Shown here piece by piece: positions 6,241-63,427 of a stretch of 64,000 nucleotides of DNA (positions are counted from its first letter, which is position 1; every line of letters starts with the position of its first letter). The stretch covers positions 7,876,501-7,940,500 of the forward strand of contig OX344758.2 of assembly GCA_947034885.2 (NCBI GenBank), written 5' to 3'. Source of the DNA: Thuidium tamariscinum. Its lineage: Eukaryota > Streptophyta > Bryopsida > Hypnales > Thuidiaceae. The position numbers were made by a program, and so were the translations under genes. The notes under the pieces are model-generated. The model did not search any database, was not told the origin of the DNA, and worked only from the letters and a program-made list of their open reading frames with translations.

Positions 6241-9194
6241 TTAGCAGAGATCTTCTGCACCATCGGGGTAGGACAGGGAGAAAATGCGGATATCAGGGGT
6301 GTTGTTGTTGGAGGTAATTAGAGGAGATGTGATATTATGGGGTGAAGGGATGGGAGTTGCAATTCGAATAATACCACCTGGACCTAAAGCTCTAATTCCA
6401 ACTGCTAATAATAAGGGTGTGGTCTCGGTGACTACAGGCTCCTCGTTGGCTTGGCACTGAGCATCTCTCTTGCAGACTGGACAGAAAGGTCTCCGCGTTG
6501 TCAACCACTGGTCTATACAATCGAGATGAAACTCTGCAAGCAGTGGTACCATTTGTGAGATTCAGCACTTTGGATCCCAGAAGAAGATATTCGTTGGTAA
6601 TTTGATATCTGACAGAAATCCTTATGGAAAATAAGGCACTATCTCTGGAGAACTTAGGTTTTACATGATGATGTCTTCACGATTGCACAAGCCTAGTGCA
6701 ATGGTTCATGATAGACTAGTATAGTGATACTACATTGATAGCCTAGTTCTTCGGGTTGAGAACACATTAAGATGAAGAGCCTGACAATAAGCCCTCAAAG
6801 AATGAGATTTCTGTACAGTAGAACACGCAGCTAAACACATCTGCCTACCGGTATCCCAAATTGAAATTTATAGTTTTATATGTTTCTTTCCATATAAAAA
6901 AGATTTAAAATTTCAAAACCCTCTTTGGCAATCTTAGAATGCCACTATTCCTAAACCCTCATGTAACAATTCTATAAAGGCAGAAGAAACTCATTATTTC
7001 GACTACTGGGCTTCAACACACAAACTACAGGACTGCTTTAACACATGACTCATTTCCATTGGATACCATGACCGTTCACATATTTTATCCATTGCTTAGT
7101 CTCTCTCCTTGGGAGTGAGATAACCACACCACATGAAACCAATGAGTGCATACTGATTATGAGAATGAACGTCTCCTCAACATCAGACCTTGTATCAGAT
7201 TTAGATCACGTATGTATAAATCTTCAAATCCTTAAGAGTTTCATAACTTTTTCATACGGTATCAACTAACGCATTCTTAGAATCTCCTTCCATTTCTTAA
7301 AAAATGCGATCATTCTAAATGATAAAAACTATGCTCAACGCTTTAACCTGTCGCAAATAGTTGAAGTTACTTGAATCAAAGAGGGTCAGGACATATACGT
7401 ACCATGTTGACAAGGGAGCAACCTCAGCTTTTCGCCAGGCACGTAATCTTCTAAACAGATGGCACAAGTCTCGGACGTGCCCTTCTCGTCTTCAATGCAC
7501 TTGAACACAACGCTGGGCAGTGCATTAACGTCTTTCACACTCATTCCAGAAGGCTCCCTTGGGAGAAACCGTGCGCTCAAATGGCGCAGTCTGTGTTGTC
7601 GCACAAAGAAGAAGGTCGCCAGTACAGAGGATACAGCAAGAAGCGAGATGAACGACACGGCCATGACCGACCAAGCCGTGTTCTCGAACGCGGGCATTAT
7701 GTAGCACATTGCACCCACGTCCCCGGCATGCTTGAGCAGAAACTGCCCTGAAACTCTTGACACAAACACAGCATACGTGCTGATGTTGAAAGAGTTCCCT
7801 GACACTGCAGCCGTTGAGAAAGAATATCAAAAATTTGAACAACATCAACTTCATTGTTCTCACGCTCATATTAAATGCCTAGTCATTCCTAAACTTTGAC
7901 ATACAACACAGAAGATTCCAGGGCCCGGATAATGAGGTCTTTTCTACGGTTTCCTTAATTTTAATCATACTCCCTCCGTTCAGATATAAGTATCCAAACA
8001 GGGCCTCATGTCATTTCAGTAGTTCACACGAAAAATTTCAGTTAGATTTATTTATGTTTCAACAAACACAAGCAATACTCATCGTTCTGGTTATATACAA
8101 ATTTGGAACCATCTGATTTATGATTTCCACAATTTGACCCGTGACATTGGTGTCAAAAAGTTTCAAATATAACTAAATGTACTTCCAGACGCGGGGAGTA
8201 ACATGGTTTCAGGTTGTTCCAAAAAGGATAGAATAATGTCTTTCAGTAATTTGACCTATTTAGGTCTATGCTAATTAGCGAGTAATTTAGTGACGATAAG
8301 AGTTGAAAGGAGACGTACTAGTGACTAACTCATGATCATCCTGGTCGCTGTAGACGATGACAGCAGCGAACCCAGCATCCTGGGCATGCCGCACCTTCAC
8401 CTCAAAAGTGCACAATCCACGTTCGATCAAAAGAAACGCTGGCTCTCGAGTCTTTGAAATGTTGACCAACGGCGAACAAGCATCCAAAGGGTTGGAAGTA
8501 TACAGTGTTCCCACAACACCCGCCGTTGGAACTCGTGGAGCTGCCAGTCTAAAGACCACAGGTTAACAAAAAAAATTCTTTGGTTGCGAATTCAGATAGA
8601 CGTCAGAAAAGACCACACCCCAACTGAATTGACAAAATCTATAATGTTACTTTACGAGGTATTGGATACATGGTAGTCCTCATGTTGACCTAATATTAAG
8701 AGACTGTTAGTGTACTCCAAATGGTATCATTGGCATTAACCGGATATTTACACAGAGATTCATTTCTAGTGTCCTACTACAGTAGCATTAGCATCGTTAA
8801 TCTACTGGGAGCGTCTTTCGAGATGGATCGCCGATTGCAACAAACTTAACAGAAACACGAGGAGATGCCCTAATCTTTAATCACAATGGATACAAGAGAA
8901 ATGAAATAGCCAGTCCACAGTAAGGATGACTCCGAACAACTACTTCAGGTTTTCTTTTAATATTCAAAGAAACGATTGAGAATACTCACAAGCACTGAAT
9001 TCGAATATATGAAACGCAGTAAAAGAGAGAAAGAAACAGAAACACGTACCAAAACTAGCCTCCATATCTGGAAAGGACCAGGATTCGTTTGTTTCGGTGA
9101 GCAAGAGAACAGCCGAGTTCACTCTCCCAAGCAGAAGAGTGAGCAGAACGAGGCACAAACCAGCTAACGATATCATAATCTCTCTGTGACTCAT
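6241..9194 (-). CDS. RMR: RMR-type PA-TM-RING-H2 receptor protein, four exons, complete
   Basis: Proposed exons are 9194-9050, 8540-8319, 7804-7403 and 6533-6241. They sum to 1062 nt (353 aa plus stop), and every junction keeps frame with GT-AG ends (three GTACGT donors). In order the protein has a signal peptide (residues 1 to about 25, hydrophobic LAGLCLVLLTLLLG), a luminal protease-associated domain with the NPLDACSPL and GFAAVIVY motifs, a membrane helix at about 165-190, and a RING-H2 finger at 236-277 with all eight ligands (CAIC, CQHEFH, C, CPVC). A short variable tail follows. Known RMR proteins sort storage proteins to vacuoles and belong to the PA-TM-RING ubiquitin ligase family; that role here is by homology. 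The ATG at 9194 was chosen because it starts directly before the signal peptide. An in-frame ATG at 9251 would add 19 residues. The last intron is about 870 bp, and a Stowaway-like MITE sits in the second intron. Confidence 0.93.
7968..8200. mobile_element. Stowaway-like (Tc1/mariner) MITE in RMR intron
   Basis: The left end reads TA then CTCCCTCCGTT, the hallmark start of plant Stowaway elements. The right end is the imperfect inverted complement ending GGGGAG then TA. The element body is 7970-8198 (229 bp) between TA dinucleotides, the expected tc1/mariner target duplication. It lies in the intron between the PA-domain exon and the PA/TM/RING exon, away from the splice sites. The two ends are diverged, so it is not recent. 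Confidence 0.8.
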
Positions 9195-28553: not shown

Positions 28554-30177
28554 GATGAGCCTCAAATTCTGAACTACTGTACCGGTACAAGCAAATTGCA
28601 AAACAGTATTTCAAGCAAAAGTACACATCCTTGACAAACCAATCACTGATTGAAAACCAAAGATACCAACTGATTTGGCATAAAATTTTCCTGACCATTG
28701 CCATGAATCTTCGAAACAGTTTCTTTCAATCTGGCAACAGATGTTGATCCTTGCAACATTACATTCTCAATAAAAAATTATCAACATCTGTACAATCCAG
28801 TTAACCTAAGGGCTCGAATTGAGGGACAAACCAAGTGCTAATGGTCAAATTCATTGAAAATTGCTGATTTCAGAGTGCCAAATAATGTAATGTTACATTG
28901 AAGTGCTGAAAAACTCTGACAACTCGTACTTCCATTTGCCTACAACTTAGAGCTTTGAGAACTAGAACTTTCAGGGGGCTCGGAGGTGAGGTGGCCGACT
29001 AAATTCTAGAACTCTGAAATCTAGAAGAAGTATAGATATGAGGTTCAATTTGAACTCAGCTAACCAACTCAAAACGGCTCCAATTATCAATCGGAAAAAT
29101 AAAAATTTGTAGGGCTCCTCAAAAACAGCCTTGCAAACAGCTTTGGCATTATATCCACCAATTCAACGAAACAGGGGACACTGGCTCCACAATACAGGAG
29201 CCAGTCTAGCACATTCAATAATACTGGTCGTGTGCCTTGAGATGAAATTGCATCCTGCCTGCAGACAACAAGACAAATTAGCAAAATTGATGGACTAGAA
29301 TGTTCGAGAGCATTATCGGACATAATGCCAAGTCTGATTACATAATCACAAATGAACATATCTTTTCTTCTTGGTTGATACAACGATTTCAAAAGGGGAG
29401 AAAGGTCTGAGATATAACCTCTTCTGTCTACTCACACAGTTGCCTCAAACATTGGGCTTGGCATTATAAAGATTGACTTCATAAAAACGGCAATTCTGTT
29501 ATATGGGCAGTATTTATATCTGTACGAGTCTTAGTTTTTTAATCTTCGCTGTTGAATGTAGTAAAAGTTGCCACTCTGAAATCGTGCCAGTAGAACAAAA
29601 CTGCCAAGCAAAGATTTAGAGCAAAGCAGAACGGTGCGGTCAGATTTGATAAGACTCTCACCTGCGGACTCCCGTTGCAATTCTTCCTAACTTTGTACGT
29701 ATCCAGCTCGCGACTCTCCTAACGGCCAGCCACACAGGAGCCTCTGCTGGAATCACAGAAAACAAAACCACACCAATCAGCGTCCGAAACCCTGTCCTCA
29801 CTGGCCCAAAGCATATTCAAAACCAAATCAATGAAATTTGAAAGTTAACAAATAAAATCGGCGCATTTCACATACTAATTTGCACATCAACCAGCACAGT
29901 AATCTAACATAAAAGTCAAAATCATGCAAGGAATACCGCCAGTTCAACAGAATTGACGTTGAAGTGCTCCAGTTGCAGTTGTCAACCGTTACCATGGGCA
30001 TCTACTACGCGAAGCTCTGCGACTGTAATTAACGAGTACGACCATACTTGGAAAAAAACACCATGATAGAGAAATGAGCGGCGTACCTTCCGGCAGAATC
30101 AATCCAATTCGGAGAGCTTCATTCCTCGAGCAGTCGAAGTGCACACATTCAGATGCACAGATCATGGGATCTTTGGA
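28554..30177. other. DUF641 downstream region
   Basis: It probably includes 3' untranslated sequence near 29600-30177. A 9-bp-stem hairpin (ACTGGCTCC...GGAGCCAGT) is at 29180-29205. A minus-strand frame at 29087-29392 is not recognisable. Confidence 0.45.
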
Positions 30178-32151
30178 TTACGTGGTAACCAAATAGACTT
30201 GCGCACGAATGACGCTACTCCCAACTCGAAACCCAGGATGCACCATGAGTCCCACGAGCGCTTCAAACGGCAACGCCGCTCCATCATCCCCCAGCACCCC
30301 ACTCGAGATTCCCGGCACAGCCGATTCCATATAAATCGGGTTAAACTGCGCTCCTTTCCTCACCGAGATCATCCTCGCAGGCGGCTGAAACGAGAATGCC
30401 AACCGATGCAACAACCACACCGACACCGCCAGTCGACAATAGCTTTCGTAGAATCGACTCGACGGGTGCCTCCCCGCGCAAATTTCATCACTATGGTTGA
30501 AATCCCCAAAGAACGCTTCCTCAGTGGACTCACTCACAATGTGCAAAAACTTCTTGAAACAAAACTCCCGGAGGAAGCCGCTGTGAGAGCGGTTATCTGT
30601 TAAGAGTGTGACTGTTTCAGAGACGTTTCTGTGGGTAATATATTCATGGAAACACGCGCGGGAGTGATCCTCGATGTCGAAAATCTCCGTCATGCAGCTG
30701 TCGATATTGAAGCACTCGCTGTCGAAGTCCAGGAACATGCGACGGAGGATGAAGGATTGAACGAGGAATTTGTAGTCGGAAGGGCGGGCGACGATAACTT
30801 CAGACTCTAAGCAGATTTGCTCGTCAAGGTCACGCGCTTTCGTCAAGTGCTGCTTGAGGTGCGACATGAAAGTTCTGGAGAATGTGTGCGCGGCTTCTTT
30901 CACGCCGATCACGGCGGACAGAAGAGTTTTGGAAGAGGGGCCCGTGTTCTCGTTGATAGTTGGTTTGTAAGGAATCCCACCAGCAGCGAGATGCTCCTCC
31001 ATGTCGTAGAGCTGTGCACTAAGCTCCTCGATTACGAGATTGAGCTCCTTGATGTCGCGGCGAAGCTTCTCCTCCATGGCCTCCCGCTTGGCGTCCAGGT
31101 GGGCGAGCTCTTTCGTATGGGATTTCTCCATGCGCTTCATGGTTTTTGCAGTCTTCTTCGTCTCCTTCGCGGCTTTCTTCTCGATGTGGTCGAGGATCTT
31201 GTCTTTTGTGTCGAGCTGGGATTGGTAATAGGACCGCCACTTCTGTAACGAGTCTATCTTGGATTGCTTCCGCACGTTGCTGGCGCGCAAACCACTAATC
31301 TCCCGCTCGAGCGCGCTCTCACGGTCTCTAAAATCGGTAAACATCTTCGTCATGTGATTGCGATTCTCCTCGTCCCCTTTCGCAACTTCCTTCAATTTCA
31401 TCCCCCCTGCAGCGAAGTTCAAAGCATTCGCTTGCTCATCGGCAGTGTCACTACACTGTGAAGTTTGTGAGAAAGAAACTGAACGGGATTCGCTATTTTC
31501 AGCCGGGATTAGAACCGGCGTCACCACTGCAACCTCAGATCGCCCGTCTGCGTACATTATATCACCACAAGTTTCTTTCGTTTCGGAGATCGGGTTTTGA
31601 CCTTTAGTCATTACTCCAGAAGAAGCCGCAATGTTCGAAGCATCTTCCTCAGCAACTAGTCGGCTGTGAAGCTCCATGGCGTCTCTGTACAAGTCCTCCG
31701 CGAACTCTTCCGCTTTGCTCAGACTAGCTTTCCCAAGCTCAAAGTGACGACTGCACTGCTGATGATCTTTCCCTGAGTCTGACCAGTACAACTGGTCGTC
31801 GTAATCTTCAAGCGTTTTGAAGACGTGGGGTGGGGTGGTAGCGCCTGGCCATGACGACCTGTCGGTACGTCTGGGGGTATGGTCACGGCGCCGGTCCTCA
31901 GCTAACCCGGGTGACATGGTGCCGTCTAGAGAGCCGTTTCTGCGGCGAGACCTGCGACGGACAGCAATCTCCGGTTGTGAATCGCCATTTCTTTGGGTGG
32001 ACACTGGCGCTAGCGTGTGAACGCCGTTTTCCCTGTGGCTGTTTTCCCTGTGACCAGGCTCATTGGACGTGGCGTTGAAGCGTGACTTCGACCTTATGAG
32101 GTGGTTTAAATTGGATTCGTCGCGTGCAGCAGCGTCGCCGTTGTCGAACAT
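30178..32151 (-). CDS. DUF641 family protein (GIL1/IRK-interacting-like), single long exon
   Basis: From the first in-frame ATG (32151) the protein is 657 aa. The same frame stays open to 32301, just after a TAA, but has no ATG there, so either the start is at 32151 or an unseen upstream exon splices in (possible acceptor CATGCAG near 32265). The open extension encodes a Ser-Arg-Pro repeat. The rest has a basic low-complexity N-terminus, a coiled coil at about 255-390 rich in Lys/Glu, and a conserved C-terminal region at about 410-657. That region ends in a PGF...VIRAQVYLV motif as in Arabidopsis GIL1 (known ending PGFKLS...IIKSRVYLV). It also contains SRFYESYCRLAVSVWLLHRL, matching the family pattern SQFYxxFLxLAxAVWLLHxL. 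Family members act in light-dependent gravitropism and in receptor-kinase interaction; the biochemical role is unknown. The long N-terminus is unusual. Confidence 0.85.
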   Translation of the reverse strand: MFDNGDAAARDESNLNHLIRSKSRFNATSNEPGHRENSHRENGVHTLAPVSTQRNGDSQPEIAVRRRSRRRNGSLDGTMSPGLAEDRRRDHTPRRTDRSSWPGATTPPHVFKTLEDYDDQLYWSDSGKDHQQCSRHFELGKASLSKAEEFAEDLYRDAMELHSRLVAEEDASNIAASSGVMTKGQNPISETKETCGDIMYADGRSEVAVVTPVLIPAENSESRSVSFSQTSQCSDTADEQANALNFAAGGMKLKEVAKGDEENRNHMTKMFTDFRDRESALEREISGLRASNVRKQSKIDSLQKWRSYYQSQLDTKDKILDHIEKKAAKETKKTAKTMKRMEKSHTKELAHLDAKREAMEEKLRRDIKELNLVIEELSAQLYDMEEHLAAGGIPYKPTINENTGPSSKTLLSAVIGVKEAAHTFSRTFMSHLKQHLTKARDLDEQICLESEVIVARPSDYKFLVQSFILRRMFLDFDSECFNIDSCMTEIFDIEDHSRACFHEYITHRNVSETVTLLTDNRSHSGFLREFCFKKFLHIVSESTEEAFFGDFNHSDEICAGRHPSSRFYESYCRLAVSVWLLHRLAFSFQPPARMISVRKGAQFNPIYMESAVPGISSGVLGDDGAALPFEALVGLMVHPGFRVGSSVIRAQVYLVTT

Positions 32152-32301
32152 GGGCACGGGGGAGACGGGGCGAGATACGGGGCAAGATGTCGGCCGAGAC
32201 GAAGGGAGAGATGAAGGGCGAGATGAAGGCTGGGATGTAGGCCGAGAGGAAGGCCGAGAGCTGCATGATAAGCAATCCCTGGAGATATTAGTGGAACTCA
32301 C
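32152..32301 (-). repeat. 12-bp-type tandem repeat encoding Ser-Arg-Pro motifs
   Basis: This is a degenerate repeat of a CCTTCATCTCG-like unit. On the minus strand in the DUF641 frame it reads as SRPSSRPTSQPSS and similar. It is continuous with the DUF641 open frame but lies upstream of its first ATG, so it may be translated only if an upstream exon is spliced on. Confidence 0.6.
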
Positions 32302-32894
32302 AAAGCCTTAAATTTGGAAGAAAACAAAAGAAAAATTCGTTCGCAAGACTGGAGTGCTAAGGGTTACACATTGAAGACAGCACGTTACACTCATCTCAGA
32401 ATGGAATTGAATACTCTAATTCACGGATGCCAACCCATTGACCTTGCACATTTCAGTAAAATTGGCGTAGTCTCAGAGATCTGACCTCGAGTCGCTAGCT
32501 TGAAAGGACTAGGTAACATTAAAGAAGAGCCGTTGTTAAGAGAAATAATTAACTTGTGACATACAGCTAGTTTTCCGACGTCTTTCATGTTACCAAACAT
32601 AATTTCTGTAGCTGGGTCCTCTTGAATCATGCTCAATCGAAGGTTTTAAGGGTACACCATAGTGCTTAAGGACATGATTATTTTATATAACAATGCTCTA
32701 CGCCTGCAAATTCGCTTCGTTACCACCTCTCCAGAAACGGACTCCATTGAGATAATTTCTAAAAACCTTTGCGCACTGAAACCTCTCTAGATTGACGCTC
32801 TGAAACACACCATTTTAATAACAACTTAGGACCGGCATTGGATTAGCAGACCTGTGTCATTTTAGATAAGTCTCATGAGGGCAGGGATGATGTT

Positions 32895-34635
32895 CACCTC
32901 GGCAGACGAGCAGACTTCCGCTTGTCAGCAAATTCAATTGCAGCCATTCGTGCCACATCAGACAGGTCGGATTTCCTCTCCTCATATTGATCCAGTGCAT
33001 CAAAGTCTGAAGCTGTTCTTTCAAAGTCCGCAGATAATGATTCCATCTTCACGTTATAATCCACCTTCATCCTTGCCTCTGCTGCTTTTAAGTCCTGGGA
33101 GACACAACAAATCAGCAAAGTTTATTGACGATTCCCCGCATTAAAATCCAAGCCACAAGATCAAGCAGCATCAGCATATGTGCTACAGAAATACGTCCTT
33201 TAAAAGAGAATGTCGCAGATTTGATGGACTTCTTCGCGGTAATTCCTGTTGTCTTGTAGGCTTGTATGCAAACCAAACTTCTTCAAAGGTTGTGCAATTG
33301 TGAAACTAAGAGATTAAGAGCGATAAATGCCTAGGGAATTTCTAATAATGTAAGGAACCTACGAGCTCTGCCCGATGCTTAAGAGCCGCCTCCCGCTCCA
33401 GTGTTTTCTCTCTTTCCACCTTGCGCTGTGCAGCAAACATCAATCTTTTCTGATGATTCGGAACTACCTTCTCTTCGACATGTGCCATCGGATTCTCTAC
33501 TACTACATGACTTTTCTTCAATACTTCAAGCGCTGAGGTTGGCTCCTTGAAGTCCTTGGTAAAAACGTCTGATTCGAATTCCCCCTGTGAATCATCCACA
33601 TTCCACATTTCAGTACACCACAAAAGTGGCAAGTTCCAAAGTACGGTAGGCACCCTATCTGTAATTGAAGTAAAGGAGTCCTTATGTTAGTGCTATCATC
33701 GAGCCATTAGATTCCAAAACAGTGAATGCATGCACTAAACAAATTCCTCAAAATATAGTGGCCCGCATTAAATGAACTTTATAATGGAGAAGAGCAGAAG
33801 GAAACAAATGAGAAAATGAGTAGCAAGTGGTGGTAGGGTGTTAACAAGAAGGGGGTCTAAATACGGTTGTTCAAGGTCAGACTCCATTGAAGTATCGGTG
33901 TTCAAATACTGTTGACACTAAGCCATTGACTTTTAAACTGGGAGTCTAGTTCAATAAATAAAAACGCCATCAGATAGTTGCCCTCACTAGATAGACTGAG
34001 AATTGGATAGAAGAAAAAACAAGGAAAAAAAACAAGTGGAGGTGGGTGTTTACAAGAAGATCATTGAAGTATGAGAGAGAATAGTGTTGTCAAAAAGACA
34101 ATATAAGGTTCCAAATAGGAAGACCAAAATCTAACTGCTCAAAATACAAATCATAGAAGCGAAGAAGAGAGAAAGGCAGGTTGCAACGGAAGAAATGCGT
34201 AGCAAGATTAGGTGTGAAGCTTACAAGAAGATCCAGGCCCTTCATGGTGCTGTGATAAATCTCCCATGTAACAGGAATATTGTTAATCCGATAATCGCTA
34301 GTCCCACTGCTGATAATCCTTCTTCCGAAATTCACCTCCTCACCACTCCCATTGCTAAACACAAGCTTCACAAACGCCACCCTCCCTCCTGCTCTCGGCT
34401 CCTCCTCGAGGACTCCCTCCTGCACATTCCCTCCTCGCAGCCGAAACGAGCGCACTCCGATGATGAAGCTGATGGCCTCCACGAGCTGGTCGCGTTTTCC
34501 GGCTCCATGAGCCGACAGAACCGCGGCGAAGCTTGCGAAGGGGCCTATGACGTGACGGAACTTGAAGGACTTGGAATTCAGAATCTCCAGGCGCTCGATT
34601 CTTCCGGCGCGACTGAAAGGATCCAGCGATGGCAT
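32895..34635 (-). CDS. Short SMC1-derived gene or pseudogene, three exons, no hinge or C-terminal ATPase lobe
   Basis: Exons 34635-34225, 33584-33363 and 33094-32895 join in phase 0 with GT-AG ends and give 277 aa, then TGA. Exon 1 matches the cohesin SMC1 N-lobe: the AISFIIGVR, RLRGG and SDYRI motifs all align. The Walker A loop at residues 41-48 reads SAHGAGKR where SMC1 has GPNGSGKS, so the Mg-binding Ser is lost. Exon 2 aligns to the first coiled coil just after the ISGS motif (EEK...QKR). Exon 3 aligns to the coil before the C-terminal lobe (IERTA...ALDQYE type; here FERTAS and ALDQYE). The FLVFQGDVE segment, most coils, the hinge, the LSGGEK signature and Walker B are absent between and after the exons. 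SMC1 is normally about 1,220 aa. It cannot be a standard cohesin ATPase: it is either a decayed duplicate with its frame intact by chance, or a repurposed fragment. Confidence 0.7.
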
Positions 34636-36251
34636 TGTGGGACTGGGTGGCAGAGACTGGACCCCGCTCCTGTTGCTTCCTGTTGGTGCGTCATGTGCAG
34701 GCTATCGCATTGTAGTTGGCATGGAGCTAATTTGTTCTGAACAACGCACGAGGAAACTCTAAGTCAAGATTGATTCGAAAATGCATGCAAACGAGAAATC
34801 AGCAGGGAATGCGCGTCATCACCGCGCCATGGATTCAAACCGGAACGAGATTCTTTTAACAAGAGATAACGTGGTGTCCGCATGGAAGGGTCCTTAAAAT
34901 GCGGTTTTAATACGCCTCTACAGGCCTACATATTGAGATCCGAGTACTAATCATAGATGTGCTGCGAATCTGAGATAGAATCCCAACAAACGTGTTTTTT
35001 TAGATTTCTTGCTCAGTTTGGGTCAACTCATGTGAGTGATAGCTCGTCGGAAAAGTACGAATGAAGCACTTCCAACAAGTCGATACCCACAATCTGGTTG
35101 TCAATATTTAGATCTAGGGTTCAAACAACCTCAGAAAGGATTCCCATCTAGCGCTGCGTTTAAAATGCGCACGACGAATCACCACATTGCCTACCAAAGT
35201 CGACCACACTGCGAAAAGAAAGCTGCTGGTGTTTCGCAACACTAAAGAAATAATAGTGCGTTCAAATCTCTTACCACCTTTCCCCCGCTAATAATGGAAT
35301 ACAGGAAAACAGCGAGGATTCAAAAGAAACTGAAAGATGCAATGCATAGGCACAAAACGCAATGCCAACATTGTAATGTCGTTACCAATCTACGACCACC
35401 ACAACTTTTCGGAAAACCCTTCACAAAATGAAATCATGACACAGCGAGGAAACACTTCAATAGTGATTCAACGAACTCACGGATCGATCCCAGTACCCAT
35501 TCGTACTTGCAGCGCAGATCAACAAAATTCACGTACTCACCCAGATCCACAATGCCAGACTCGCTGCGCCCACCCCCAGCGCCCTCGATTCTACCCTCGC
35601 ATTACTGAACTAAACCGGGCGCCCCGCGTGTACGTATTGAAGCAGCCCCTCCTTCCGAAATTCCAATGCCGGGGGTGCTTCCAGCGAAACCTTAAACCTT
35701 GCGAGCGTCAGTAGCACATCCTGATGAGTCCAAATTGCAAGCACGGGAGCGGCGGTGCAAGTGAGGCAGAGGAGGCAATCTCGCGCGAGGCGAAGGTTCC
35801 GTAGTGGCTGTGAAGGCGAGGCCGCGACAGTGACGGAGGTTGTGAGTTGGGGGGCGGGAGTGCGCCACAGGAAATGCGGGGGGAAGGTGGGGCCCCACGA
35901 TTGTTCCTGTACCTGGGGCGTTGATTCCTCGCGGGCTGACGGTTTGTTTGCTAGATTTGAGGGGATGCACATGAGGCAGCCTGGGAGAGGAGTTTCCGTT
36001 GTGAAACGCGCGCGGGCGGGCGCCTGAGTTTGGTTCGTCTCCGCTTTGCTAGAGGCCCTACCCCCCAGCGCCCGCGCCGCGTCTCTCGCAACGCGAGCGT
36101 CATGGCCAACATGAGTGGTCCCGGCGGGTGCGGGTGCGGGTGTCTGCGGAACTACGTTCGTCCTTGGGGCAGGCTTGTTACTTATCGTTTCTGTTCGTTT
36201 CTTGGAGGTGTTCTCATTCGTCTTATGTTTTGCACGCTAAGGTCCGGTTTA
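34636..36251. other. Upstream region and GC-rich island
   Basis: 34636-35600 is the 5' flank of the SMC1-derived gene. 35600-36250 is strongly GC- and CpG-rich with overlapping open frames on both strands, none recognisable. It may be a promoter or 5' leader of an unidentified transcript. Confidence 0.5.
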
Positions 36252-37417
36252 CACTAGGGGTAGTCACGGCTCCTTCGAGCACTTAGATTTCGCAGAAGAA
36301 TGAGGGAAAACAGAGTTCAATCAGGAGTCGATTAGCATGAAGGAGCTGTGACACCCCTTTTGAGTGCAGTGAGCATGTAGAATCGGAATCGTGCGAATGT
36401 GTTTTTGGCTTTCACTTCATCGGTGAGATCGGCAACTCCGACGGTGCGATCGATAGCTTTCGGTAACAACTTTGCTCGCTAACGGTTCTTCACACCGCTT
36501 ATTCACCTTCGGAATAGAATAAGCGACACGGTGAAGTCTTCGCCGTCGAAGAATATTTTGTCACGTACCATCTCGCAAGAGCCAACCCTAAGTTGCTACG
36601 ACACTTAACAGTGGCGAAGTTTGGTAGGGAGGAAGAGCTGTGACTACCCTTACTATGGGTAGTCACAGCTCTTGCGAGAATCGAAATTCTGTGAAGTTGG
36701 AGAAATCAGTTAGACAAAAGTGGAGATTATCATGAGCCATTCAGCGTGAAGGAGCTCTGACACCCCTTTCTATTGCTCACAGAAATTCTGCAGAAATTTT
36801 TGACTTGCAAAGCTGGGTGGGAGCTCCGATACTTATGCTAGGCTAGACATTTCAAGAAATTCAATGAAATTTTTTTCAAAACTATTGTTTCTTCACCTGC
36901 AAATTAAGGAGAAGAAACAACACTTTGATTTCTTTGAGAATTTCATGTCTACCTTTCACTCACGATGCACTAATGCATGGCATCTGTTCTTTCTTAGCAA
37001 ATGCAAAGGACTGTGGAAGTGTTAGGGGTTGTCACACCTCCTTCAACACAGTTGCAATTCTCCGAGAATGTCCACATGGCATTCTATCATAGGTAGCTTC
37101 TAATAAGCTCAGGTTAATTTCTTCAGGAAATGAGTGTAACATTTTATTTCCTCTAGAAATAAAGAAACGACACTTTTGAAAATTTTCAAGAGGATTTTTT
37201 CAAAGCACTTATGTAAGTTCAAGCTATACAAAGCTCTAGCTATACAAAGCTCTTATCCAACTTTGTAGGTCAAGAATGGAAATCACTTTTAACAGAAGAA
37301 GGGGATGTCACACCTCCTTCACACCGAATAGCTTATGATAGGCTTCACTTTTTTGTCACTAATTTCTCCTATTTCAAAGAAATCCAATTCTCGCAAGAGG
37401 TGTGACTACCCGTACTA
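36252..37417. mobile_element. Array of two adjoining inverted-repeat elements with GGGTAGTCAC ends
   Basis: The first unit runs 36252-36655 (ACTAGGGGTAGTCAC ... GTGACTACCCTTACTA). The second runs 36651-37417 (TACTATGGGTAGTCACAGCTC ... GTGACTACCCGTACTA), sharing the TACTA junction. Internal half-copies of the end motif (GTGACACCCC / GGGGTTGTCAC / GGGGATGTCAC beside CTCCTTC) lie near 36346, 36760, 37026 and 37307. The first unit is CpG-rich. It sits beside a GC-rich island. Confidence 0.72.
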
Positions 37418-61527: not shown

Positions 61528-63427
61528 CTAGCATACTGAATTCACCCTTGTCAACACTACATCAACATCCTGTTGCTTTCGAAACCTATCAGACCTCGAT
61601 CCTTCAAAACTGATAATCACGTGATCTTTCTTGTTGGGTGGTTGCAATGGCTGCCTTTTCCACAACATGGAGGCTTCCTTGTGCGCAACATACAAGCCAT
61701 CGATGGCGGCGCAAATGCCTTGACTAATGGATGACAAAGGCAAGATCCAAAACGGTTCTTCAATGAGCACCCCCACCTCTTCGATGTAAAACAAGGCCAC
61801 AGCGCTCATGAACGAAACCGGGATCGTGAGCCACCCGCACGTGTTCCACAGTCCAAACGGTAACGCGACATGCCAAATCGTCAACATTCGAGAAGTCAGG
61901 CGCGTGTACGCCAGCGGGATCGGCGTCTTGAAGATCCTTTCACAAGCTCCGACGTTGTCATGAAAGGTGGTGATATTGGCATCCATCGCGATTTGCTCCC
62001 ACTCGGAAACCTGACACAGCGCAATCGATTCGGACATGACTTGCAAAACGTAGTTGGGTCGGTGTTTCGCGCCCATGATGTTTTCCAACTCGCTGGGTTC
62101 AAGTATGTTGGTGATCTCTCCTCGAAGCTCCGTCTCGTCCTCGATGAGATGATCTTTCAGACAAAAGCCGTAGGCTTTAATATGCCGCAGGAGACAATGC
62201 AATTTGGGTGCATCGTTTTCCATTCGAATCCACGTCAAAGCCTGTCTTCCCAAATCCCTGGTTCTGTTGACATTGGAGCCCCACGCTTTGCGAGCCTCAT
62301 CAAAGCGACTGTAGGAAGCGTTGGTGCGAAACACCAACAGAAGCGCAAGCACGGGGGCCGTCAAGGTAAACGGCAGGGACGCGACATGAAGAAGGGGCAT
62401 CCATTTGGGCAAATATCCTTTTTCCACGGAATAGTTGATGAGGGAGACGAAGACGGCCACCATGGAGAACGTGATCACGGGCGGTCCCAACGCGAAAATC
62501 ACCCCGGACGAGACGATGGATTTGAGGTGACGCCCATGTCGCCAGGAGGATTTGTGCCGGTTCCACTCAGCATGGCCGTAAACAGTGTTGCGATGCATCC
62601 TGAATTCCTGATAGCTAGCCCTGAAAAATGATCAAAACACAATACTTTAAATTACATATTAATAGGTCTTCAACAAAAAAGCTTACACTTTTAGTTCACA
62701 GGGTAGCAGTTTGGATATAAATAGCAGAAGTTCTAATTGAAGAAAAACCAGGTGAAGGTGAAACTAAAGTGTGTATTCAGTTGTTACAGGAAAAAATTCT
62801 GAAATTGTTACCCCAAAAATCAGAAATTAAAGGAGTTTAACGAAATAACACTATTTTAAACATGATGTAAGTAGATGGATTGGCAAATTTCATTAAAAAT
62901 GGTGAAATTTCATTACTTTGACACTTTTTACAGTTTAGACTTCAGATTGCACAATCTGAAATCTAAATATATCATAGATAATTTAAATCTATACCAATCC
63001 TAAATGTTTCACACCATTCAATCTGAAATCTAAATTTGTCATAGATTTTAAAAGTCTAAATGTATCTTAGAATTCTAAAAATCTATACCAGTCCTAGATG
63101 TCAATTTCTGGTTTAGACTGCTTTGTCAGAAAAATGGCATATGAAATACTGCCATTTTTAATGAAATTCATTATATATAAAGTAAAAGTGTACAACTCAA
63201 GACAATGAGAAGTTGGAAAATTAAATCATTCGAGAAATCGACGTTTCCAAGTTGACACGATACTTACAAAAATTTGATGGCTTGGCTGTAGAATAGCTCT
63301 TGGAATGGATCCTTGGCCGGAAAAAAACACGTCTTTGCAAACTTGTAGTTAATTGCAGCTAGGAGTCTTGATGTGTAGCTGGTGTTAATCCATGTGAAGG
63401 TGCAACTTTTTCTTCCAGAAGTAGTAG
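61528..63427 (-). CDS. Bestrophin-like (UPF0187) chloride channel, VCCN1-type, 5' end unresolved
   Basis: The main exon 62620-61528 encodes about 364 aa to the stop. An upstream exon, 63427-63268, joins in frame (phase 2) through donor GTAAGTATC and acceptor TTTTTCAG. Family motifs are clear: LLVFRTNASYSRFDEARKAW, AKHRP, PIPLAYTRLTSR, WHVALPFGLW, and the bestrophin signature EEVGVLIEEPF. Several hydrophobic membrane segments are visible. The plant homologues VCCN1/2 are voltage-dependent anion channels of the thylakoid membrane that adjust proton motive force. The location here is inferred, because the transit peptide should lie in one or more exons upstream of 63427 that I could not identify. 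No ATG precedes the conserved part in frame within 63268-63427, and a stop lies just upstream of the proposed acceptor. An ATG at 62598 inside the main exon would omit conserved N-terminal residues. A MITE lies in the intron. Confidence 0.88.
62886..63168. mobile_element. MITE in the bestrophin intron with 17-bp perfect inverted ends
   Basis: AATTTCATTAAAAATGG at 62886-62902 has a perfect inverted copy at 63152-63168, and the inverted similarity continues imperfectly inward. Internally there is a tandem duplication of about 80-90 bp starting at each ATCTGAAATCTAAAT. It lies between the two identified bestrophin exons. The superfamily is not resolved because no clear target duplication is visible. 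Confidence 0.72.

Follow-up and report, generated by a model that had tools for sequence, protein, structure and literature searches.

How much of a gene for the cohesin subunit SMC1 can be removed before what is left ceases to be a gene? The question is raised by a locus of the moss Thuidium tamariscinum, found in a stretch of 64,000 nucleotides (assembly GCA_947034885.2, contig OX344758.2) referred to below as the window; it spans positions 7876501-7940500 of contig 10 in a genome of 363 Mb and 19 contigs. On the minus strand of the window, at 34635-32894, three GT-AG exons join in frame (137+74+66 = 277 residues) and correspond to exons 1, 2 and 16 of SMC1. This mini-gene is tentatively interpreted, from its sequence and with somewhat less than even confidence, as a retained, ATP-dead miniature of SMC1 which arose from an old partial duplicate by exon loss. 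A retained mini-gene and a recently dying paralogue appear about equally likely, and the evidence on both is set out below.

Anatomy of the mini-gene

The anatomy of the locus is firm. Exon 1 encodes a peptide running from the initial M to LDLL, exon 2 one from GEFES to HRAEL, and exon 3 one from DLKAAE to RLPR followed by the stop codon. An earlier, first-pass annotation of this DNA had described three in-phase exons with a 277-residue frame at 32895-34635; the frame and the start are confirmed, and the end is shifted by one base, since the stop codon TGA occupies 32896-32894. The features, in window coordinates and in the direction of transcription, are the following.

34225-34635, minus strand: exon 1, 137 residues, SMC N-lobe, counterpart of SMC1 exon 1; splice donor GTAAGC
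34492-34515, minus strand: changed Walker A motif SAHGAGKR, residues 41-48, located from alignments with SMC1 (GPNGAGKS)
33585-34224, minus strand: intron 1, 640 bases (SMC1 intron 1: 193 bases)
33658, minus strand: first base after a competing acceptor (acceptor score 9.0)
33363-33584, minus strand: exon 2, 74 residues, head-proximal N-terminal coil, covering the whole of SMC1 exon 2, phase 0
33095-33362, minus strand: intron 2, 268 bases, where SMC1 has about 5.9 kb with exons 3-15
32897-33094, minus strand: exon 3, 66 residues, head-proximal C-terminal coil with ALDQYE, covering the whole of SMC1 exon 16
32894-32896, minus strand: stop codon TGA, within the retained 5' splice site of SMC1 exon 16

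Origin from the full-length SMC1

A full-length SMC1, which the first-pass annotation had proposed to look for in the same genome, is present on contig 4 (inside 21079001-21089000). Its 18 exons were read by eye from open frames, with provisional exon ends and an intron between exons 8 and 9 that was not resolved. Exon 1 of the mini-gene is identical to SMC1 exon 1 at 70 of 132 aligned residues, exon 2 to the whole of SMC1 exon 2 at 29 of 73, and exon 3 to the whole of SMC1 exon 16 at 27 of 66. The respective global alignments have z values of 25.4, 9.0 and 11.4, and none of 2000 shuffles reached the score of any of them. The previously claimed alignment with three separate parts of cohesin SMC1 is thus far above that of shuffled sequences, and the homology of all three exons bears out the SMC1 origin.

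The matches are also specific. When searched against the genome, exon 1 found SMC1 (53% identity over query positions 10-137, E value 1.7e-35) and no other strong match; a third, weak one (contig 1, E 0.013) lies inside another match of the SMC profile PF02463. This profile scores 50.5 bits on the frame 34635-34090 (cut-off 40), in agreement with N-lobe homology, and the best PDB matches of the mini-gene N-lobe are SMC1A and SMC1 chains. Exon 2 aligns with SMC1 exon 2 at a score of 82, and with the other 17 SMC1 exons at local scores of 38 or less; genome-wide matches of exon 3 comprise itself and SMC1 only.

The two genes have intron positions in common, namely those bounding exon 2 on either side and the one at which exon 3 starts, all in phase 0; the acceptor and the old end of exon 3 also coincide with the borders of SMC1 exon 16. 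Exon 1 stops at its GTAAGC donor, 10 residues short of the end of SMC1 exon 1, and the stretch VKARNFLVFQ, which carries the Q-loop glutamine in SMC proteins, is missing. At the other end of the gene, the SMC1 exon-16 donor AG/GTGAGG is represented by AG/GTGAAC and read through as AGG TGA; the stop codon of the mini-gene is the old SMC1 splice donor. Past every gap in the protein alignments (which by their nature show whole-codon gaps only), homology resumes in the same frame. A processed pseudogene was considered and ruled out, as the mini-gene is not intronless and its introns are situated at SMC1 positions.

The proposed course of events starts with an old partial duplicate of SMC1 that would have lost exons 3-15 (outer coil arms and hinge) and exons 17-18 (C-lobe), leaving exons 1, 2 and 16. 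As read from the sequence, the frame would have survived the removal of the inner block because SMC1 has a phase-0 intron both behind exon 2 and ahead of exon 16, and the loss of the last exons would have converted the exon-16 donor into the stop codon. Synteny indicative of a block or whole-genome duplication was not shown: the 18 genome matches of GIL1/IRKI (presumably a plant family, encoded next to the mini-gene) include none near SMC1, and 349 open reading frames of the window (at least 50 residues), compared with 109 kb around SMC1, yielded beyond the SMC1 exons only matches of 12-88 residues (best E 6e-23), taken for repeats. A dispersed or very old duplication is a possible origin.

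Two observations concern exon 1 and the intron that follows it. An open frame of 201 codons runs antisense to exon 1 (window 34135-34737, plus strand). As SMC1 exon 1 also carries a long one on its antisense strand (178 codons, L014 8029-8565), the frame is probably a by-product of codon composition. A part of intron 1 (window 33633-33767; about 132-137 aligned bases) is 70% alike to contig 4, 5433946-5434077. This site, at 5.43 Mb, was the single other place found in a DNA search of the genome with the whole stretch; SMC1 was not listed there, and its absence says little, for local blastn did find it (149 bases, 69.8%).

Lost parts and predicted product

The first-pass annotation had suggested that the missing SMC1 exons be sought in the introns or flanks. 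On comparison of the 18 exon peptides with the window none of them was found: exons other than 1, 2 and 16 gave no match in the whole window better than E = 0.27, and within 30001-37000 alone the best one (E 0.044) was exon 5, inside the frame of the neighbouring gene. The C-lobe carries the signature and Walker B motifs together with the kleisin-binding face; its exons 17-18, hence the signature and Walker B, were not found in the window. The hinge family PF06470, searched genome-wide, occurs at four places, none at the mini-gene. The claim that hinge and C-lobe are gone is thereby upheld for the window. Genome-wide searches for fragments of a second copy covered exons 14 and 17 and the hinge family: exon 14 has a single match, SMC1 itself, and exon 17 has one strong match, again SMC1, along with two weak ones elsewhere (E 0.002 and 0.07).

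Within exon 1, the Walker A motif reads SAHGAGKR where the same-genome SMC1 has GPNGAGKS; it departs from the intact pattern GxxGxGKS/T, and an additional residue is inserted close by. The lysine is kept; the serine, which binds Mg, has become arginine. The first-pass annotation gave the changed motif correctly, but the form it named as replaced, GPNGSGKS, is that of SMC1A. Because Walker A is damaged and the C-lobe absent (the hinge is gone as well), the predicted loss of ATPase activity is well supported by the sequence. Among 58 N-lobe positions identical in the same-genome SMC1, SMC1A and the SMC1 of 6yuf, which we take to be the fission yeast protein, the mini-gene keeps 30, changes 20 and deletes 8. 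The losses are not clearly enriched at the ATP site, with 5 of 8 invariant Walker A residues affected versus 15 of 42 other aligned invariants (plain counts).

SMC1 exon 2 corresponds to SMC1A residues 138-215; exon 16 ends at SMC1A residue 1066 and starts near 993, the start being extrapolated by 12 residues. Exons 2 and 3 of the mini-gene therefore represent the two coil pieces adjoining the SMC head. The product would be an ATP-dead N-lobe, unable to bind Mg-ATP and joined to both head-proximal coil pieces, which, lying side by side in SMC1, could pair as a short hairpin.

Age and selection

Pairwise comparison of 271 codons by the Nei-Gojobori method (NG86) gave proportions of synonymous and nonsynonymous differences (pS and pN) of 0.684 and 0.317, and corrected distances dS and dN of 1.83 and 0.41. 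With dS at this level and 145 of 271 aligned residues differing between the mini-gene and SMC1, the duplication is, by sequence divergence, old.

Nevertheless, no stop codon or frameshift occurs in the three exons. Neutral drift was simulated with one transition bias and no indels or CpG effect. Runs taken to the observed amino-acid identity contained 8.3 stops on average, and 0 of 1000 were stop-free; half the way to that identity, 5 of 1000 were, and at the fitted distance 0 of 2000. Single exons, a weaker test when taken alone, remained stop-free in 80 (exon 1), 45 (exon 2) and 213 (exon 3) of 2000 neutral runs. After drift by 0.058-0.092 substitutions per site, 13% to 4.4% of the simulations were stop-free; with 80 substitutions this was true of 44 of 1000 runs, which bounds the neutral time at about 0.09 substitutions per site.

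Synonymous divergence points in the same direction. A neutral model in which the mini-gene drifts freely and SMC1 is constrained (dN/dS ratio, omega, 0.05) for an equal time predicts, over all exons, a pS of 0.555 (standard deviation 0.041); its prediction for exon 1 is 0.485 (0.056). The observed pS is above expectation, its value being reached by 0 of 1000 simulations for exon 1 and all exons alike, and the observed pS minus pN was reached by 1 of 1000 (all exons) and 2 of 1000 (exon 1). On a coarse grid, the fitted omega of exon 1 is about 0.4, and the overall value about 0.6. By these estimates exon 1 is under constraint on average, and neutrality is rejected for it.

Since the frame is stop-free where the simulations are not, and since exon 1 rejects neutrality, a long-neutral pseudogene is not supported by the sequence. 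The "young pseudogene" of the first-pass annotation does not hold as worded either: the duplicate is old, and drift of at least about 0.09 per site leaves stops in more than 95% of simulations. Judging from the frame and the constraint, the mini-gene would most likely have been kept as a protein-coding gene long after its divergence from SMC1.

Retention or recent decay

A number of findings weigh against a retained protein of 277 residues, and splice-site weakness is the main one. By position weights trained on 16 introns of SMC1 (a small set scored on itself), donor 1 (2.0), donor 2 (1.6) and acceptor 2 (3.0) fall below all 16 SMC1 sites, where no donor scores under 2.2 and no acceptor under 6.9; acceptor 3 scores 12.4. 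The stronger competing acceptor, located 74 bases before exon 2, is out of phase and would lead to an early stop, although the in-frame acceptor of exon 2 looks by eye like its SMC1 counterpart. Exons 2 and 3 taken alone fit drift (217 and 169 of 1000 simulations; omega 1.0 and 0.8). Hydrophobic positions stay hydrophobic at 8 of 15 sites in the first coil piece and 11 of 14 in the second, losses that speak against the first piece more than the second. In the N-lobe, the mini-gene has lost 28 of the 58 invariant positions, and the missing stretch accounts for 8 of these. Exon 1 folded alone without an alignment gave a poor model (mean predicted local distance difference test score, pLDDT, 59.7) with no structural match at E ≤ 0.001 and no SMC protein among the best 50 of 467 matches; as a prediction of structure this model is uninformative. 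Finally, the constraint may predate the truncation, the simulations being silent on before versus after.

Much of this is equally expected of a fast-evolving second SMC1 that was long constrained, then shed the inner and C-terminal exons and has since been drifting as a pseudogene, an account which also falls a little short of an even chance. It would explain the weak splice sites together with the stronger wrong-phase acceptor, the coil exons compatible with neutrality, and the loss of catalytic residues and of VKARNFLVFQ; the fraction of simulations still stop-free at 0.058 to 0.092 substitutions per site leaves room for a short period of drift. Such decay has to contend with 277 open codons and an exon 1 constrained on average. 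Exons 3-15 and 17-18 have left no trace in the 64 kb, which speaks weakly against this account because a clean deletion leaves none either. Should the gene prove dead, it would illustrate clearly how a deceptively intact frame can remain when exons are lost between phase-matched introns.

An improbable variant of retention is a gene joining exons 1 and 3 only, with exon 2 skipped, whose product of 203 residues would serve as a decoy or brake or have a function unrelated to cohesin. Skipping would keep the frame, as the end of exon 1 and the start of exon 3 are both in phase 0; the acceptor of exon 3 is much the better one (12.4 versus 3.0), and exon 2 looks least constrained. At the same time, exon 2 is homologous to its last residue and free of stops, a state reached by just 45 of the 2000 neutral simulations cited above. 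Least probable of all is a retained protein with a role outside cohesin, e.g., a nucleic-acid or scaffold protein using the N-lobe, which would suit the confinement of constraint to exon 1 and the absence of hinge and C-lobe (much of what SMC1 holds its partners with) and has no positive evidence in its favour.

If the 277-residue protein is retained, its action may be conceived, speculatively, as that of an N-lobe which presents its C-lobe-binding face, or its coil, to the heads of SMC1/SMC3 or to their loaders and does not support ATP hydrolysis; it would then be a decoy or brake on cohesin, comparable with SMCL-1 of Caenorhabditis elegans (see below). The dominant-negative-like role suggested by the first-pass annotation is possible on this basis. 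With the C-lobe absent, a fragment serving as a decoy head is likelier than a head poisoned in the classical sense. The more specific proposal is on the present sequence evidence unlikely: a lineage-specific, ATP-dead miniature SMC1, made by exon loss and consisting of the N-lobe and a natural "bonsai" hairpin of neck coils without the C-lobe, would have been selected as a cohesin regulator, either pairing in trans with the C-lobe of SMC1 or preventing the heads from engaging or being loaded. If true, hinge-less regulators of the SMC type would have originated independently here, in a plant and for cohesin. If the mini-gene is translated and conserved, the N-lobe of an SMC protein would be of use with a short coil hairpin and no ATP hydrolysis, and the binding of cohesin heads could be separated from their catalysis with a natural tool.

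Neighbouring genes

The mini-gene is adjoined by a single open frame of 709 codons (window 30178-32307, minus strand) with a C-terminal GIL1/IRKI domain (PF24994, 37.7 bits); contig 10 holds four of the 18 genome matches of this family (9.46-9.78 Mb). At the start of the frame (window 32160-32270) there is a short tandem-like GAGATGAAGG repeat, the other strand of which reads, by eye, SRPSSRPTSQP. Farther away, the minus strand harbors a bestrophin-like channel gene with a 367-codon open frame (window 61531-62631; PF25539, E 6e-77) and a part of a RING-finger protein (window 7389-7826; PF17123, 31.8 bits).

Comparison with known systems

The mini-gene is homologous to cohesin SMC1 (SMC1A and plant SMC1) over its three exons and has intron positions in common with it; unlike SMC1, it is devoid of 15 of the 18 exons, with the outer arms, hinge and C-lobe, as well as of VKARNFLVFQ and an unchanged Walker A. 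A designed counterpart exists in the SMC1A head construct of 8p0a, where the chain is left near residue 204 and rejoined near 992 via a linker (constant offset 777). In 8p0a and its kin the arms and hinge are removed at nearly the same join as in the mini-gene (equivalents of about 216 and 993), whereas Walker A is intact in the SMC1A chain and the C-lobe is kept, judging from the construct length. Exon loss would thus have yielded about half of a designed head construct: the N-lobe and neck coils, without arms, hinge and C-lobe.

Partial SMC-like proteins with other roles include DMS3, an SMC-hinge protein. SMCHD1 is another partial SMC-like protein according to PMC5373644; both resemble the hinge, the very part missing from the mini-gene. 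Small partial SMC paralogues that keep an open frame seem rare; the cases named in that paper are SMCL-1 and SMCHD1. A truncated plant SMC1 gene was not among the matches listed from the open-licence literature, where absence is no proof, and the accessible parts of the plant papers PMC9957857 and PMC12469541 contain nothing on one.

The closest comparison is with SMCL-1. PMC5373644 describes it as a short, hinge-less SMC-like protein, predicted to lack ATPase activity, that binds condensin SMCs, behaves as a negative regulator and is apparent in some Caenorhabditis species only; it keeps both ATPase lobes and an intact Walker A and has no coils. As far as that description goes, the mini-gene is similar in being a short SMC homologue without hinge and ATPase residues, and differs in its derivation from SMC1, the absent C-lobe, the changed Walker A and the retained head-proximal coils; its sequence features place it outside the SMCL-1 type. 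Still, because a hinge-less protein without ATPase residues acts as a regulator in that system, a head decoy or brake on cohesin would, by analogy, be the best mechanism for the mini-gene if it has been retained.
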